Source: a virus
Strand: one strand, 5' to 3'
IMG/VR virus record: IMGVR_UViG_3300017742_000049
Span: 1-33,360 of that record
DNA: 33,360 nt
The translations under genes and the position numbers were made by a program. This document shows, in pieces, positions 10,333-17,017 of this stretch. The first letter of the stretch is position 1; each line of letters begins with the position of its first letter. The notes below the pieces were generated by a model. It saw only the letters and a list, made by a program, of their open reading frames with translations. It had not been told where the DNA came from and made no database searches.

Positions 10333-10817
10333 GTATATTTTCAATAGTTAAAGAAGCTGCAGGAGACGAGCCAAAATCTTTTGGTTGGTATCGTGACAAT
10401 GTAAAAGTTCTTTTCAAGATGAGTGATCTATATGCTGATCTGGTGGAACAGGAGGAAACTTTAACTCCCACACCAGGACAGTTATACATGTTTGAATATA
10501 AAGCAATTTATGCCGCAAGGTTAAATTTTTATGATAGATTTCCTCTTGTGTATATTACAGGTGTCGGAGATCCATTCAGAGGTGTTAACTTACATTATCT
10601 TGGACTGAGAAAAAGACTTAACTTAGTTTTAAATTTGGAAAATGGTGTGCTCGCAGGAGCTCCAAAAAGATCCTATCACAATTATCTACTAAAAGGTCTT
10701 GAAACTCCGTTGTACCTGATAAATAGTGATGATTATAAAACTGCTGCCTTCTTACCTGTAGAAGATTTTGGTGGTGTAAGTAAAACTGCCGTCTGGAATG
10801 GAGCAAAACAACAATGA
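10329..10817 (+). CDS. Conserved T4-like structural or assembly protein, unassigned
   Basis: The 162-aa protein has a block TPTPGQLYMFEYKAIYAARLNFYDRFPLVYI and GVNLHYLGLRKRLNLVL (about residues 47-110). I know similar blocks, with Pro-Gly-x-Leu, Tyr-Asp-x-Phe-Pro-Leu and Leu-His-Tyr-Leu, from many marine T4-like phages as virion-associated proteins. It lies between gp4 and a tail-tube initiator in a chain of ATGA overlaps, so a role in head-tail joining or baseplate assembly is likely. In T4 the neighbour of gene 4 is gene 2 (DNA end protector), but I see no sequence reason to call it that. Confidence 0.7.
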   Translation: MSIFSIVKEAAGDEPKSFGWYRDNVKVLFKMSDLYADLVEQEETLTPTPGQLYMFEYKAIYAARLNFYDRFPLVYITGVGDPFRGVNLHYLGLRKRLNLVLNLENGVLAGAPKRSYHNYLLKGLETPLYLINSDDYKTAAFLPVEDFGGVSKTAVWNGAKQQ

Positions 10818-11566
10818 CACTTGAAGTAACATCAAATTTAAACGTACTGACAAACTATAACGAATTTAAATCATATGTATCTAAATTTGGCTATAGTATG
10901 GCCAATCTATATGACATCCAATTTGATTTACCTGGATCTAGTTCATTATATCTTCAACTTGCTGATGACTTTGGTTTGTCTACAGAAGAAGGTTCTCCAA
11001 CTCTTTCGGATGTCCAACAGTTGATGAGATTATATACTACATCATGTACTATGCCTGGTGTTACCATGTCCGACAGTGAATATAGGATTACTAATACTCC
11101 CCAATTAAAATATGCCTATGGTGCAGTATTTAATGAATTTAGTGTTACTTTTTTGATGGATGCTAATTCAAACATCAGAAAATTATTTGATAAATGGACG
11201 AACATCATTTATCCATATTCATCTTTTCGTGGTTCTGGAGATGGAGTTCTAAGAACAAGATATAAAGATGAATATATTGGTGATATTACTGTTGTTAAAT
11301 ATGAAAGAGGATCTTCATCTCAAAAAATTAGAAAGATGGCAAATAAAGTGGCTACCAGAAGAATTATTCCTGATGGTGAAGGAGATCAAGATAGTTTATT
11401 CGTTGATAATGTTGCAGTTCATGCTGTAAAGATGAAGAATGCATTTCCAAAATCAATTGATTCCATGACTTTGACTGCTGATGGTGGTTCATTAACCCAG
11501 TTTTCTGTGTCCTTTGAATATGAGTCTTTACAAACTAGTACACCAACAAGAACATCATTGGCATAA
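10814..11566 (+). CDS. Tail-tube-fold protein, gp54-like baseplate tube initiator
   Basis: The 250-aa protein has features of the gp19/gp54 tail-tube family: an N-terminal ANLYDIQFDLPG, TTSCTMPGVTMSDSEYR (about 76-92), the block EFSVTFLMDANSNIRKLFDKWTNIIYPYSS (about 110-138), then DEYIGDITVVKYE and a final beta strand LTQFSVSFEYESL. The MDANSN-RKLFDKW-N-IYP pattern is typical of tail tube and tube-initiator proteins. The real tail tube gene (19) in such phages lies beside the sheath gene, which is not here, while gp48, gp26 and gp27 are. That makes gp54 the better guess (320 aa in T4). Confidence 0.6.
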   Translation: MTLEVTSNLNVLTNYNEFKSYVSKFGYSMANLYDIQFDLPGSSSLYLQLADDFGLSTEEGSPTLSDVQQLMRLYTTSCTMPGVTMSDSEYRITNTPQLKYAYGAVFNEFSVTFLMDANSNIRKLFDKWTNIIYPYSSFRGSGDGVLRTRYKDEYIGDITVVKYERGSSSQKIRKMANKVATRRIIPDGEGDQDSLFVDNVAVHAVKMKNAFPKSIDSMTLTADGGSLTQFSVSFEYESLQTSTPTRTSLA

Positions 11567-11601: not shown

Positions 11602-12315
11602 ATGCCTTTACCAAAGCTAAATGCTCCAACATATGAGTTGGTACTTCCATCAACAGGAAAAAAAATTAGATATAGACCATTCCTAGTTAAAGAAGAAAAA
11701 ATTCTTCTGGTTGCTATGGAATCTGAAGATGAAAAACAGATGCAAGATTCTGTTAAACAGATTCTGAAAAATTGTATCCTCACTAGAGGTGTCAAGGTTG
11801 ATGATCTATCAGTTTTTGATATTGAATTTTTATTCCTAAATATTCGTGGTAAGTCTGTAGGTGAAGAAGTCACATTAAATCTCATCTGCCCAGATGACAA
11901 TGAGACTCAAGTTGAAGTTGTTATTGATATTGAAGATATCAAAATCCATAAACCAAAAGAACATAATTCTTTGATTAAGTTGACGGAAGAAGTATATCTA
12001 CAAATGAAGTATCCAAGCATGGAAACTTTTGTGAAAAATAATATTACAGGTGATAATACAGTAGATTCAATTTTTGATCTAACTATAAGTTGTATTGATC
12101 AAGTTATTGAAGGTGAAGAAGTTTTTGAATCTAAGAGTTTTTCTAAGAAAGAACTTTTAGAATTTATGGATAGTATGGACAGTACACAGTTTCAATTAAT
12201 TCAAAAGTTTTTTGAAACAATGCCAAAACTTTCTCATGTAGTTGAACTTGACAATCCTAAAACAGGTGTCAAGAGTGAAGTTGTTATTGAAGGTCTACAG
12301 AGTTTTTTCGATTAG
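11602..12315 (+). CDS. 26: gp26-like baseplate hub/tail assembly protein
   Basis: The 237-aa protein (208 in T4) has the T4 gp26 pattern: MPLPKLNAPTYELVLPSTGKKIRYRPFLVKEEKILLVAMES, an ILKNCI..GVKVDDLSVFDIEFLFLNIRGKSVGE block (about 55-92), and a helical C-terminus with FSKKELLEFMDSMDSTQFQLIQKFFETMPKL (about 180-212). gp26 helps build the hub. Its position just before a gp51-like frame and two tape-measure-like genes equals that of tail assembly chaperones in other phages. It ends with the codons AGT TTT TTC GAT TAG, which contain a perfect slippery heptamer, so part of the ribosomes probably shift into the gp51-like frame (see 12303-12393). Confidence 0.85.
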   Translation: MPLPKLNAPTYELVLPSTGKKIRYRPFLVKEEKILLVAMESEDEKQMQDSVKQILKNCILTRGVKVDDLSVFDIEFLFLNIRGKSVGEEVTLNLICPDDNETQVEVVIDIEDIKIHKPKEHNSLIKLTEEVYLQMKYPSMETFVKNNITGDNTVDSIFDLTISCIDQVIEGEEVFESKSFSKKELLEFMDSMDSTQFQLIQKFFETMPKLSHVVELDNPKTGVKSEVVIEGLQSFFD

Positions 12316-12393
12316 TTCTAGCTCACGAATCCCTTGAAAACTATTACAAAACTAATTTCGTGATGGTACAACATCATAAGTGGGATCTAGAAC
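12303..12393 (+). promoter_or_regulatory. Programmed -1 ribosomal frameshift signal joining gp26 to gp51
   Basis: T TTT TTC at 12303-12309 is a canonical X XXY YYZ slippery site in the gp26 frame, two codons before its stop. A slip of one base back places ribosomes in the gp51-like frame, which is open across the site. Five bases downstream starts GTTCTAG (12315-12321), exactly complementary to CTAGAAC (12387-12393). Nested inside, TCACGAA (12323-12329) is exactly complementary to TTCGTGA (12357-12363). Such a structure 5-9 nt after the slip site is what promotes -1 shifting. The predicted fusion is 236 gp26 residues plus 61 more, 297 in all. Confidence 0.75.
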
Positions 12394-12494
12394 AATTAGA
12401 AAAAATGATACCTTGGGAAAGGGAAGTATATGTTCAGATGCTTATCGAATTTGTCGAAGAAGAAAATGAACGAATCAAAAGTCAACAGAAATAA
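12309..12494 (+). CDS. 51: gp51-like hub assembly reading frame, probably translated by -1 frameshift from gp26
   Basis: The frame is open from 12291 to the TAA at 12492-12494. From the slip site it encodes RLVLAHESLENYYKTNFV and continues VQHHKWDLEQLEKMIPWER, then a helical acidic end EEENERIKSQQK. The HHK..LxxLE.MIPWERE.Y pattern recalls the second part of tail assembly chaperones and the short gp51 of cyanophages. The frame has no ATG, GTG or TTG before GTG 12360 / ATG 12363, and neither has a ribosome binding site; starting there would give only 43-44 aa and drop the HESLENYYKTNF helix. It ends 3 nt before the next gene. gp51 of T4 is 249 aa, so the identity is positional and tentative, while the frame itself is well supported. 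Confidence 0.65.
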   Translation, partial: RLVLAHESLENYYKTNFVMVQHHKWDLEQLEKMIPWEREVYVQMLIEFVEEENERIKSQQK

Positions 12495-12497
12495 CTA

Positions 12498-14852
12498 ATG
12501 CCAGCACCCGCCGCCGCTGCAGCTGCAGCACCACTTATAAAAGGATTACTCGGAGCAGGAGCTCGCGGGGCGGCTACTGGTGGAGTTAGAGCTGCAGCTG
12601 GTAACGCTGCTAAAGGAATGGCCGCTGACGCTGTAAAAGGTGGCGCCAAAAAAGGGATGAAGAACTTTGCCCGTAACATGACGGGTAAAACATCAGAAGA
12701 TTATAAGTCAAGAGTAGATGGTGTAAATCCAGAGACTGGTGAATATCTAACACCTGAAGAAAGAAAAGCAAGATTTAAGGGATTTGCAACCGCTCCAACA
12801 AAACCAAAATCTCAAAAATTATTATCAGCAGCTCCAACTCAAGCAGTAGCTGCTTTGCCTCCAGCTGGTGGAGTAGGTAATAATGATCAGCAAACAAAAA
12901 CTGTAAATCATCTGGAAAAAATTCAGATGTATTTAGAAAAACTTTTAGTACTTGAAGAGAATGCCTTAAGTAGATTACAAGATAGAATTCTAAACGAAGC
13001 TAGAAGTGAGGACAGATCTTCCGCTGAGGAAGAAGAAGAGTCGATGGAGAAGGGTAAAGGGGAGAAGAAATCAAAAGGAAATCCCCTCATGCAGGGGGTA
13101 AAGAAGAAAGCAGGTGGCATCTTCAAATTCCTGATGGACTTTGCTATGAAGTTTGTTGGATATAAAATTTTAGAATGGATTGGCAAACCAGAAAATCAAG
13201 AGAAAGTAACTAAGATGATTGGGTTCTTTCAAGGACTCGTATCTTTCGTTACAACAGTTGCGGGAATAATTGGTGCTGGTTTTGAATTTGCTACTGATAC
13301 AATTGAGAAATCAATTGAAGGCATTAAATTTTTAGCAGAAAAAGTATCAGACTTCTTTGGTTTCAAATGGTTAGATGTAGATGCTTTACTAGAACCAATT
13401 AAACCTATTATTACTTTCTTTACAGAAACAATTCCAGGTGCTCTTGATAATTTTATAGACGGTTTAGCATCCACAGTTGATGCAATGGATAAACTTCCAG
13501 AACAATTTATAGGTATTGTTGATAAAATTGCAAATGGTTTCTTAGGATTTATTGGATTGGGTCCAAAAGATACTGAAGATTTTCCCGATAATCCTGATGC
13601 ACCAGCTCCTGTAGAAACAGGTTTCCTAGAAAATACTGCTGGAAATGGATCGCAACCAAAAGAAACTGCACTAGATAAAAAACCTGTCCAAGATCAGGCT
13701 TCTAAGAATGTAGATGATTTACCACAAATGAGACGTGGTGGTATGCTTCGTGGTGCTACACATGCACAAGGTGGTGTTCCTATCGAAGCAGAAGGTGGTG
13801 AATATGTATTAAACAGAAGAGCAGTTGCTGCAATTGGTGGTGGTGTATTAGACAGTCTTAACTTTGGTAAATATCCTGCTGTTGGTAGAGGAGAAAGAGA
13901 AAATCCAAGCAGCATGGCATCAACTGGTGGTATTGTTCAAACTTTTGCTGAAGGTGGTTCAGTTCATCCTCTTTTAACAAAGATGAATGACAAGAACATT
14001 AGAAAGGCACATGCTCGTTCTGGACTTTGTGTAACAGGATCACTCAATACTATGTTAAAGAGTGGTGTTCCAGAACCTGCTGCTACTGGAAATGATGTAG
14101 GTAATAACCCAAGAGGTGCAATCTCTCAGATGATGCAACCTCCATATAATTGGAAGAGTATGGGTGGTACTAAAACTACTCTTGATAGTCCTTATGGAAA
14201 AGTTTCACCAGGTATTTTTTCAAGAGAAAAATACCTTGAACTGGTTGAAGCTGGTAAAGTTCCATCAGGTGCATTAGTATTCCAGACAAGACACAACAGT
14301 TGGAATGACACTAGTTATAACTCAAGGGGTTATGACATGGCTATTGCACAAAAGAACGGACAGGCGTTATGGAATGGAGTGCCGATTAATGATTCACTTG
14401 TATATTCTGGCACTAAAAAGGTAGTTGTATTGACACCTGATGGAAAAATGGGTAATGGTGAAGTTGGAGATATGACAAGTAATACTGATGGTAATGCATC
14501 AAGTAACGGTGCATCTGGTGGGTCTACTACAACCACCACTACAACTACAAGACCTAAAACAGCAAAAGAAAAAGCTCATGCATTGCAAGGTTCTATTTTA
14601 GGTGCAGCAAACGCACTTGTAGAACTTATGGGTGGTAAACCTGTCAATGCTGAAGATGTTCTCAGCCAAAAACAAGAAGAGAATAACAAGATCAAAGGAG
14701 AATATAGTTTTGCTGAGGGTATTGATACTAAAATCATTGATTATCAGATGCCTTCAGATTCGAGTACCAGTTTTGATGTTGATTTTGAAGTTCCAACTTT
14801 AGGAGATAATCTCCCACCATTTTCCCAAGCATTATATCCTATTAATCTATAA
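12498..14852 (+). CDS. Tape-measure-like hub protein with a CHAP/NlpC-like C-terminal domain
   Basis: The 784-aa protein is built like a tail length determinant. It has an Ala-rich helical N-terminus (1-60), a coiled coil (LEKIQMYLEKLLVLEENALSRLQDRI, about 138-165) with an acidic run, and hydrophobic helices (about 205-350) with the motif EWIGKPENQEKV. Next comes the typical tape-measure tail RRGGMLRGATHAQGGVPIEAEGGEYVLNRRAVAAIGGG (about 411-450). After that, SGLCVTGSLNTML (about 507-519), VPSGALVFQTRHNSWN (about 587-602) and YDMAIAQKNGQALWNG (about 611-626) follow the order of CHAP/NlpC peptidases, but the usual catalytic His position reads Asp, so activity is doubtful. A Thr-rich linker (about 674-682) follows. 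gp29 of T4 is the positional counterpart. Start is 3 nt after the gp51-like frame. Confidence 0.65.
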   Translation: MPAPAAAAAAAPLIKGLLGAGARGAATGGVRAAAGNAAKGMAADAVKGGAKKGMKNFARNMTGKTSEDYKSRVDGVNPETGEYLTPEERKARFKGFATAPTKPKSQKLLSAAPTQAVAALPPAGGVGNNDQQTKTVNHLEKIQMYLEKLLVLEENALSRLQDRILNEARSEDRSSAEEEEESMEKGKGEKKSKGNPLMQGVKKKAGGIFKFLMDFAMKFVGYKILEWIGKPENQEKVTKMIGFFQGLVSFVTTVAGIIGAGFEFATDTIEKSIEGIKFLAEKVSDFFGFKWLDVDALLEPIKPIITFFTETIPGALDNFIDGLASTVDAMDKLPEQFIGIVDKIANGFLGFIGLGPKDTEDFPDNPDAPAPVETGFLENTAGNGSQPKETALDKKPVQDQASKNVDDLPQMRRGGMLRGATHAQGGVPIEAEGGEYVLNRRAVAAIGGGVLDSLNFGKYPAVGRGERENPSSMASTGGIVQTFAEGGSVHPLLTKMNDKNIRKAHARSGLCVTGSLNTMLKSGVPEPAATGNDVGNNPRGAISQMMQPPYNWKSMGGTKTTLDSPYGKVSPGIFSREKYLELVEAGKVPSGALVFQTRHNSWNDTSYNSRGYDMAIAQKNGQALWNGVPINDSLVYSGTKKVVVLTPDGKMGNGEVGDMTSNTDGNASSNGASGGSTTTTTTTTRPKTAKEKAHALQGSILGAANALVELMGGKPVNAEDVLSQKQEENNKIKGEYSFAEGIDTKIIDYQMPSDSSTSFDVDFEVPTLGDNLPPFSQALYPINL

Positions 14853-17017
14853 TGGCAATTTCTAGTGCTATCACTCCATATACAGGATCTACATCTACAG
14901 CGATTGTAAAACCACAACAATCGCTTAGTGGTATTGTTCCTGTAGAAAAAAATACAGAAACTGTAGTTGTAACTGTCAAAGATATAAGAACTTCTGTTCT
15001 TAAATTACTCAGGAAAAGACAACAAAGAGATAGACTTGAACAAAAATTTTACAATTTACAGGACACATTAGACAAAAGAAAAAAAGCAGAAAAGGAAGAA
15101 AAAAAATCTGAGAAAGGTAAGTTCCTAGGTAAACTTGGTAGTGGAATTGCTGGTAAAGCAAAAGCAGTTGGAGGTGATCTTTTCGATGCTGTCGGAAAGT
15201 TGTTAGGTTTTGTTGCTTTAGATTGGATTTCAAAACCAGAAAATCAACAAATAGTACAAGCTATTGTAGAAGGAATTGGACAAATATTCAAATTTATTGA
15301 TTGGTTTGTTACTGGTTCTGTTGACAATCTTCTATCTGGATTTACCAAGCTTGTAGCCGGTGATACTTTACTGGAAAGATTTGTTGGGTTCTTCCAGATG
15401 GCTGCTGGATTTATGGGATTAAGATATTTCTTAGATCCTACGTTGATAGTCACGGATTTAACAAAAGCTATAAAATTTATTAAAGGAAATGCTTTAAGAA
15501 AGCTATCAATCTTTAATAAAAAATTACAAAAATTTGGGTTAAAGAAAGCTCTCAAATTTGCATTCCCAAGATTATCAAAAATACTATCTAGGTTTACAGG
15601 TCTTGGTAGTAAAATTTTAAATGGTATTTCAAAAAAATTAGGTGTAGGTAAAGTAGGTAATTTGTTTGGAAAAATTACCACTGCATTACTAAGAAAAATA
15701 CCCGCTCTCGGTGCAGCTAAAAAGGCAATCTTCCATATCCTAAAACCTGTAACTAAATTCCTTACTGGTATTCCTTTTGTTGGTGGATTGATATCTTTTG
15801 GTGTCAACATGTTACTTGGTGATCCACCAGGGAAAGCAGGTGTCAAAGCAATTGGTTCTGGACTTGGATCTTGGCTTGGTGCTGGTCTTGGTACTTTACT
15901 TCTACCAGGTATTGGCACATTTATTGGTGGTTTCCTGGGTGGTCTAGTTGGTGATTGGTTAGGTTCAAGATTTTACGATCTCCTAAAAGGTAAAGCGGCA
16001 AAAAAACCATCTAAAATAGAGGAGACTAGACAGGAGGCAGCGATGGCCGCTGCTAAAATGAAACAAAAAAGTGGAGGTGGAGAGTTATCTGACGCCAATT
16101 TATTAGAAATTTCAGGGCAACTGGGTAACAACCCAGAGACAAAAAAACCATATACAATAGAAGAAGTTAAAAAACTATTAAGTGATAAACCTGAAGAGAC
16201 TGTAACCACTACTACCACAACAACTACGACTGGTGATAATGATGCTAATATCTCTCTAACCAATACTGATTATATGAATCTTATGATAGAGACTATGGAT
16301 AAGGGTGGTATTACAGACAAAAATGAACGTATCATGTTTATGGCACAAGTTGGTCATGAATCTGGTGATGGACTTTATATGGAAGAGATTGCTAGTGGAG
16401 CAGATTATGAGGGTAGAAGTGATCTTGGCAATACTCAACCAGGCGATGGAAAAAGATTTAAAGGTAGGGGATACATCCAGATTACAGGGCGCGCAAACTA
16501 TAAAAGATACGGTCCTATGATTGGCGTACCAGATGCAGTAGAGAATCCAGAAAAACTTGCTCAACCTCAAAACGCAGCAAAAGTTGCTCTTGCTTACTGG
16601 AAAGATAGAGTAGATAGAGACGCTGCTAAAAAGGGTATGGATGGTATGAATACTGTCACTCGTAATATAAATGGTGGACTTAATGGCTTAGACGATCGTA
16701 TTGCAAAGTTTAATAAGTATTCTAATATGCCACTCCGTGGTCAAGGTGGTGGTAATCCCAGTAACTCCCCAATACCAAATAGAGTATCCAGTATTGCATC
16801 AATTCCAAAACAACCAGGATCTTCTAGATCAAGTATCATGAAAGATTTAAGTACAAATGTTATTCAATCAAAAATGATCAGGTCTATGGGTCGTCGTGGT
16901 GGTACAACTATTGTTATTAATAAAGCTGGTTCACAAGTTATTAACAAACAAACTACAAGTACACCAGTAGGGTTAAATAATAGTAATAAACCTCAATCAG
17001 TTAAGAGAGGAATTTGA
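14852..17017 (+). CDS. Tape-measure-like protein with GH19 chitinase/lysozyme domain
   Basis: The 721-aa protein has a charged coiled-coil start (KLLRKRQQRDRLEQKFYNLQDTLDKRKKAEKEEKK, about 50-88) and long hydrophobic, Gly-rich helices (about 90-375) including LDWISKPENQQIV. A poly-Thr linker (about 452-460) is followed by a glycoside hydrolase family 19 domain (about 470-630): MAQVGHESGDGLYMEEIASGADYEGRSDLGNTQPGDGKRFKGRGYIQITGRANY. The Glu in HESG is the catalytic acid of the family. It should cut peptidoglycan or chitin-like glycans during injection. The KPENQ helix is shared with the upstream protein, so the two are probably paralogues. Its start overlaps the previous stop by one base (TAATG) and its stop overlaps the gp27 ATG (TGATG). 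Confidence 0.8.
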   Translation: MAISSAITPYTGSTSTAIVKPQQSLSGIVPVEKNTETVVVTVKDIRTSVLKLLRKRQQRDRLEQKFYNLQDTLDKRKKAEKEEKKSEKGKFLGKLGSGIAGKAKAVGGDLFDAVGKLLGFVALDWISKPENQQIVQAIVEGIGQIFKFIDWFVTGSVDNLLSGFTKLVAGDTLLERFVGFFQMAAGFMGLRYFLDPTLIVTDLTKAIKFIKGNALRKLSIFNKKLQKFGLKKALKFAFPRLSKILSRFTGLGSKILNGISKKLGVGKVGNLFGKITTALLRKIPALGAAKKAIFHILKPVTKFLTGIPFVGGLISFGVNMLLGDPPGKAGVKAIGSGLGSWLGAGLGTLLLPGIGTFIGGFLGGLVGDWLGSRFYDLLKGKAAKKPSKIEETRQEAAMAAAKMKQKSGGGELSDANLLEISGQLGNNPETKKPYTIEEVKKLLSDKPEETVTTTTTTTTTGDNDANISLTNTDYMNLMIETMDKGGITDKNERIMFMAQVGHESGDGLYMEEIASGADYEGRSDLGNTQPGDGKRFKGRGYIQITGRANYKRYGPMIGVPDAVENPEKLAQPQNAAKVALAYWKDRVDRDAAKKGMDGMNTVTRNINGGLNGLDDRIAKFNKYSNMPLRGQGGGNPSNSPIPNRVSSIASIPKQPGSSRSSIMKDLSTNVIQSKMIRSMGRRGGTTIVINKAGSQVINKQTTSTPVGLNNSNKPQSVKRGI

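Follow-up and report, generated by a model that had tools for sequence, protein, structure and literature searches.

The gene at position 11,602 of an uncultured marine T4-like virus very probably (we put the probability at about 0.92) yields two proteins through programmed -1 ribosomal frameshifting. The stretch analysed, hereafter the window, is the entire 33.4-kb record of this virus (33,360 nt), and all of its features described below are on the + strand. According to the mechanism that we propose, most ribosomes would stop at 12,313 and release gp26, the putative short tail assembly chaperone. A fraction would re-pair from TTT_TTC to TTT_TTT at 12,303-12,309 and read on to 12,492, producing a predicted gp26-gp51 fusion of 297 aa (gp26 residues 1-234 followed by 63 residues read from 12,303) that would be the long chaperone. 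A Shine-Dalgarno (SD)-like sequence upstream and an RNA structure downstream probably increase the slip rate, and the long product would be made in a fixed, minor ratio to the short one. By analogy with gpG/gpGT of lambda, the two chaperones would cover the tape measure protein, and tail tube subunits would be brought in by the extension. That ribosomes slip here, how often they would do so, what part the stimulators play and how the chaperones would act are matters of inference.

Gene order and overlapping frames in the window

The gp26 gene (11,602-12,315, 237 aa, stop TAG at 12,313-12,315), which we assign to the short chaperone TAC-N, matches PF12322 (T4_baseplate, E 7e-71; domain score 239 bits against a cut-off of 24.5) and phrog_150 (E 2e-78). 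It lies between a tail tube protein gene directly upstream (10,814-11,566; PF23849, E 5e-14; phrog_45 tail tube, E 3e-32), which is the position of lambda V, and two tape-measure-like genes. As the preliminary description had it, the latter follow directly after gp26/gp51, at 12,498-14,852 (784 aa) and 14,852-17,017 (721 aa), the tape measure assignment being weak. The first, a tape-measure-like or virion protein, has PHROG matches only to phage structural and unknown families and owes its putative role to its position, and the second matches phrog_167 (tape measure, E 4e-9), phrog_181 (endolysin, E 1e-44) and PF00182 (E 7e-6). The internal GH19-like lytic domain of the second protein, together with a glycine zipper, suggests a tail protein that cuts the cell wall. 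Searches of NCBIfam and of PDB sequences gave nothing useful.

The arrangement of frames that had been described was confirmed directly on the sequence. The slippery heptamer T_TTT_TTC (12,303-12,309) is in the X_XXY_YYZ phase of the gp26 frame, a single codon (GAT) separating it from the stop, and an overlapping -1 frame is open from 12,291 to 12,491 and ends with the stop TAA at 12,492-12,494. Close to the end of the short frame the window thus has a slippery site, and the open frame overlapping gp26 would provide a C-terminal extension. This extension (12,309-12,494, 61 codons plus the stop), the 'gp51' of cyanophages, is of the gp51 type, for it matches phrog_634 (baseplate hub assembly catalyst, E 3e-28), a family that also matches residues 147-246 of T4 gp51. 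It further matches positions 232-276 of phrog_150, meaning that this family already includes fused members. As also described, no ATG, GTG or TTG occurs in the -1 frame before position 12,360 and no SD sequence is found there; the first possible starts are GTG at 12,360 and ATG at 12,363 (12,360-12,365), 57-60 nt past the heptamer.

Conservation of the slippery heptamer

Relatives of this locus were taken from IMG/VR and from phage records. Contigs cut at the junction aside, every locus but two carries T_TTT_TTN in phase, followed by a -1 extension of ~50-70 codons. Removal of identical junctions left 194 distinct ones, from uncultured relatives and from phages of Aeromonas, Vibrio, Rhizobium, Sinorhizobium, Delftia and Stenotrophomonas, and the heptamer and the extension are present in 194 out of 194 (TTTTTTC in 174 junctions, TTTTTTT in 15, TTTTTTA in 4 and TTTTTTG in 1). 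Comparison of these junctions bore out the conservation that the preliminary description had anticipated for the slippery site, the heptamer being kept across phages whose gp26 proteins are only 25-30% identical. It is kept regardless of the position of the gp26 stop, whose distance from the first T is 7, 10, 13, 16 or 31 nt. The most distant stop (+31 nt) is found in L143 (1,902-1,935), L162 and related loci, where about eight codons are read in both frames and the heptamer is kept. The four TTTTTTA junctions carry a change from TTC to TTA, replacing Phe by Leu, and the slippery run is still kept.

To place this conservation against codon usage we relied on 99 representatives, that is, gp26 genes differing by more than 10% in protein. 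T_TTT is found in all 99, and the third base of the codon before TTT is always T despite the variation of the amino acid that this codon specifies (Ser, Asp, Asn, Ala, Thr or His). No other synonymous choice in the gene is as strict as the TTT of the heptamer (99/99); at conserved Phe columns not belonging to the heptamer the range is 51-88%. Under codon usage alone, the conservation of T_TTT has a log10 P of -41, a value that treats the rows as independent and that overstates the evidence, as do our other p-values, because the representatives are related. The rows had been chosen for having the site, and only two untruncated loci were left out for lacking the heptamer. Our results show that an X_XXY_YYZ heptamer is in phase at this junction and is conserved beyond codon usage.

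The -1 frame and its possible start codons

From the heptamer onward the -1 frame is evolving as coding sequence, as judged from its pattern of conservation. In the 28 representatives that have no start before +45, its identity is 0.67 at the first codon position, 0.71 at the second and 0.37 at the third. A short gp51 starting at 12,360 or 12,363, an outcome that the preliminary description had named as contrary to frameshifting, would lose ~17 residues that are conserved in relatives (FFRLxLxHxSLExYYxxNF), and we judge that these two codons are not used. The same description had asked whether relatives possess a proper start and ribosome binding site for the second frame. They do not: SD-like 4-mers precede 6% of the first -1-frame starts. 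The figure for random positions is 8%, and that for the starts of gp26 genes is 56%.

These data bear on a different reading of the locus, in which gp51 would be a separate small protein made by translational coupling, through reinitiation at or just after the gp26 stop. Many relatives do have an ATG at +15 or a TGATG or TAATG at the stop, and annotators use such starts (S-SSM5 gp51; P10VF). The ATG 15 nt past the heptamer is found in ~44 of the 99 representatives, so some separate gp51 is possible there. However, an SD-like 4-mer accompanies this ATG in 0 of 44 cases, the conserved GAGGG described below is more than 20 nt away from it and hence too far to serve as an ordinary binding site, and in the hairpin clade described below the ATG is inside the stem. 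Moreover, coupling would not need T_TTT_TT, and no start is available within 45 nt in the window and in 27 other representatives, yet the peptide encoded there is conserved. Since the -1 frame is conserved as coding sequence where it has no starts, and SD sequences are lacking, independent initiation is a poor explanation, above all in the window, and we regard coupling as very unlikely.

One of the two loci devoid of the heptamer, that of Vibrio phage D531 (L088, 3,150-3,180), nevertheless speaks in favour of coupling: the slippery site is lost, with CTT TTC AAG in its place, and a TAATG stop-start is present. Similar Vibrio phages of ~157 kb may have switched from frameshifting to a coupled restart. 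The extension is unannotated in the records of ACG-2014d (L089, 1,510-1,698) and S-BM3 (L090, 1,510-1,696), apparently for want of a usably placed start codon, and gp51 is missing under the match in ~14 of 60 sampled records.

Candidate upstream and downstream signals

Programmed frameshifting is the reading that we retain, and three candidate stimulators accompany the heptamer: an SD-like GAGGG marked by codon bias, a covarying hairpin in another clade, and a stable fold in the subclade of the window. GAGGG ends 10 nt before the first base of the heptamer in 67 of the 99 representatives. At this site Glu is encoded by GAG in 67 out of 77 cases (87%), whereas at other places in these loci where Glu precedes GGN it is GAG in 73 out of 262 (28%; Fisher p 5e-21, which again overstates the evidence given the relatedness of the representatives). 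The window has GAAGG (12,289-12,293, 9 nt upstream of the heptamer), a weaker version of GAGGG, and its near relatives have either GAAGG or GAGGG. An E/R-Gly motif in the protein partly explains why GAGG is kept, and this position is purine-rich in T4-type genes as well. SD stimulators are known for -1 shifting in dnaX and in many IS elements (PMC5009743).

Downstream of the heptamer, the two nested 7-bp inverted repeats that had been reported both exist in the sequence: the outer one (GTTCTAG 12,315-12,321 / CTAGAAC 12,387-12,393), which starts 5 nt after the heptamer, and the inner one (TCACGAA 12,323-12,329 / TTCGTGA 12,357-12,363). Their conservation among relatives, which the preliminary description had put forward as a check, was found for the outer stem and not for the inner one. 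The outer stem is kept 7/7 in the six nearest distinct relatives (L191-L196), with the same fold in all of them. Its 5′ side (GATT.GTTCTAG.CTCAC, 12,310-12,326) and its 3′ side (GTGGG.CTAGAAC.AATT, 12,380-12,397) belong to a predicted minimum-energy fold of -20.7 kcal/mol in the window (z -3.0, compared with -3.2 to -5.4 in L191-L196). Covariation of this stem cannot be judged because its arms are almost invariant. The inner stem retains 5-6 of 7 pairs in L192-L207 and is absent from the minimum-energy fold, in which a different inner hairpin, ACTATTAC...GTGATGGT (12,340-12,367), replaces it and has an equivalent in the minimum-energy folds of L191-L196. A third 7-bp pair (ATTAGTT 12,311-12,317 / AACTAAT 12,350-12,356) crosses the inner repeat; as a pseudoknot it was rejected, 5-6 of its 7 pairs being kept in L192-L196 without compensation. 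A stable fold is also predicted at 11,675-11,766 of the window, inside gp26 (-24.0 kcal/mol, z -4.0 versus shuffles), a structure unrelated to the frameshift site.

Other lineages have other structures. L202-L207 show a different outer stem in a shifted register, and a large marine clade (63 distinct junctions, the window not among them) has an 11-bp hairpin 5 nt after the heptamer. In this hairpin 87% of cells are paired, versus 23-47% for slid versions. One of its pairs is U-A 24 times, G-C 20 times and A-U 9 times, and on the tree its two sides have undergone 11 and 10 changes but only 13 as a pair. RNAalifold retained only three pairs in this clade, so support for the hairpin comes from the pair counts and the slid controls. 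In the window the same hairpin (columns 13-23/33-43) would have ~5 of 11 pairs and does not form. The 58 representatives without it have little structure as a group (mean z -0.6). As the downstream folds differ by lineage, it appears that structures turn over and the heptamer does not.

These signals also bear on whether the long form could come from transcriptional rather than ribosomal slippage, a mechanism used by some bacterial genes. There are indeed six to seven consecutive T at the site, and an inserted base would give the same frame; but documented bacterial runs are of ~9 (Atkins 2016, PMC5009743), most sites here have six T followed by a C, and both an SD-like sequence and stems downstream characterize ribosomal shifting. 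We hold this origin to be just as improbable as coupling. Finally, the idea that an indel, through a sequencing error or gene decay, has split a single gp26-gp51 gene can be dismissed, for although L078 reads through in one frame, the identical break recurs in 194 distinct junctions from isolates and metagenomes, and this recurrence refutes it. L078 (1,501-2,394 of a 236-kb contig) is the second locus without the heptamer: a 2-nt deletion relative to its neighbours leaves TTTTTGG in place of TTTTTTCGG and fuses gp26 and gp51 in one frame, which is either a real variant or an assembly error.

T4-type phages as a natural control

Among T4-type phages, which carry a separate long gp51, 11 gp26 genes could be read to the end; 0 of them have the T run, Phe-Phe being encoded by TTC TTT or replaced. 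Their gp26 and gp51 genes are on opposite strands. PF12322 matches both T4 gp26 (E 9e-64) and T4 gp51 (E 4e-52), and T4 gp51 corresponds from end to end to gp26 plus the extension (phrog_150 at 3-248, phrog_634 at 147-246). Its match reaches position 280 of phrog_150, which together with the phrog_634 match indicates that T4 gp51 is a gp26-like domain plus the extension. A profile of the fusions, from which extension-only rows misaligned in the protein alignment had been left out, matched T4 gp51 with an E of 6e-17 and aligned through the junction to the end.

It has been reported that gp51 of cyanophages and marine vibriophages lacks ~200 N-terminal residues and that Aeh1 lacks gp51 altogether (Sullivan 2010, PMC3037559). 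We found the heptamer and an unannotated extension in Aeh1. A frameshift would thus account for both the short gp51 of cyanophages and vibriophages and the missing one of Aeh1.

Predicted fold and putative chaperone identity

The natural in-frame fusion of L078 (297 aa) was modelled at a pLDDT of 91. Over 84-86 residues (within residues 1-96), its top three VIA matches among 998 chains were 3fgx (Z 7.4), the HK97 chaperone 2ob9 (7.3) and YqbN 3klu (6.9), the next being at Z 4.7; no Z score reaches 8, so that the fold match by itself does not settle the identity. A plain Foldseek search of the model against the PDB gave no significant match. The 2ob9 entry names the HK97 tail assembly chaperone (gp13), and 3klu and 3fgx are likewise of this kind. 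As modelled, the fusion appears similar to HK97 gp13 and YqbN. On the basis of homology and gene position, we take gp26 and gp26-gp51 to be putative short and long tail assembly chaperones. The preliminary description had proposed them as the T4-like version of lambda G/GT; gene position, the architecture of the extension and the predicted fold agree with this, but the idea is not new, as explained below.

Discussion

The identification of these chaperones is already published and is not new. The tail assembly chaperone genes of T4-like phages are the subject of Vladimirov, Gautam and Davidson (2022, Virology 566:9-15), whose title stresses a non-frameshift mechanism. As cited by others, that study has separate short and long chaperone genes in some T4-like phages (PMC10885494, citing Vladimirov 2022) and, in others, poly-T signals within the short one (PMC12846349, citing Vladimirov 2022). 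What may be new is the SD-like signal, the clade-specific structures and the control provided by T4-type genes. To a broader proposal we give even odds: T4-like phages outside the T4 group would set their chaperone ratio by a three-part, dnaX-like signal (an internal Shine-Dalgarno sequence, T_TTT_TTN and a swappable downstream RNA structure), and in T4 and its nearest relatives the duplicated 26/51 genes would have replaced the frameshift, the slippery run being lost. If this is true, the internal Shine-Dalgarno sequence would be a stimulator for which we found no description among tail chaperone frameshifts in the literature compared.

In hundreds of genomes of cyanophages and vibriophages, 'gp51' figures as a stub or is left unannotated; the frameshift would restore the ~200 N-terminal residues that it lacks. 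It would also make gp26 and gp51 of T4, long labelled as a hub subunit and a hub assembly catalyst, fit the tail assembly chaperone scheme. One protein pair would then be produced by two genetic means, frameshifting and duplication, within one phage group, offering a case for the study of how fixed ratios evolve. Reporters would allow the heptamer, the SD-like sequence and the stems to be tested directly.

Frameshifting of the G-T type has been described as conserved in long-tailed phages 'except T4' (Atkins et al. 2016, PMC5009743). Like lambda gpG/gpGT, the genes studied here are located between the tail tube and tape measure genes and have a short -1-frame extension, but we found no sequence similarity between the two systems. 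For certain tailed phages, frameshifting in the absence of stimulatory signals is reported (Atkins 2016, PMC5009743), in contrast to the conserved SD-like sequence and lineage-specific stems observed here. With E. coli dnaX our system would share an upstream SD-like sequence, a slippery heptamer and a downstream stem-loop; however, the heptamer of dnaX is A_AAA_AAG and not T_TTT_TTN, and the downstream structure is here not common to all lineages. Finally, T4 gp26/gp51 are of the same family (PF12322, phrog_150), and the C terminus of T4 gp51 is homologous to the -1 extension, but in T4 a separate short gene and a separate long gene lie on opposite strands, and the slippery run is gone.
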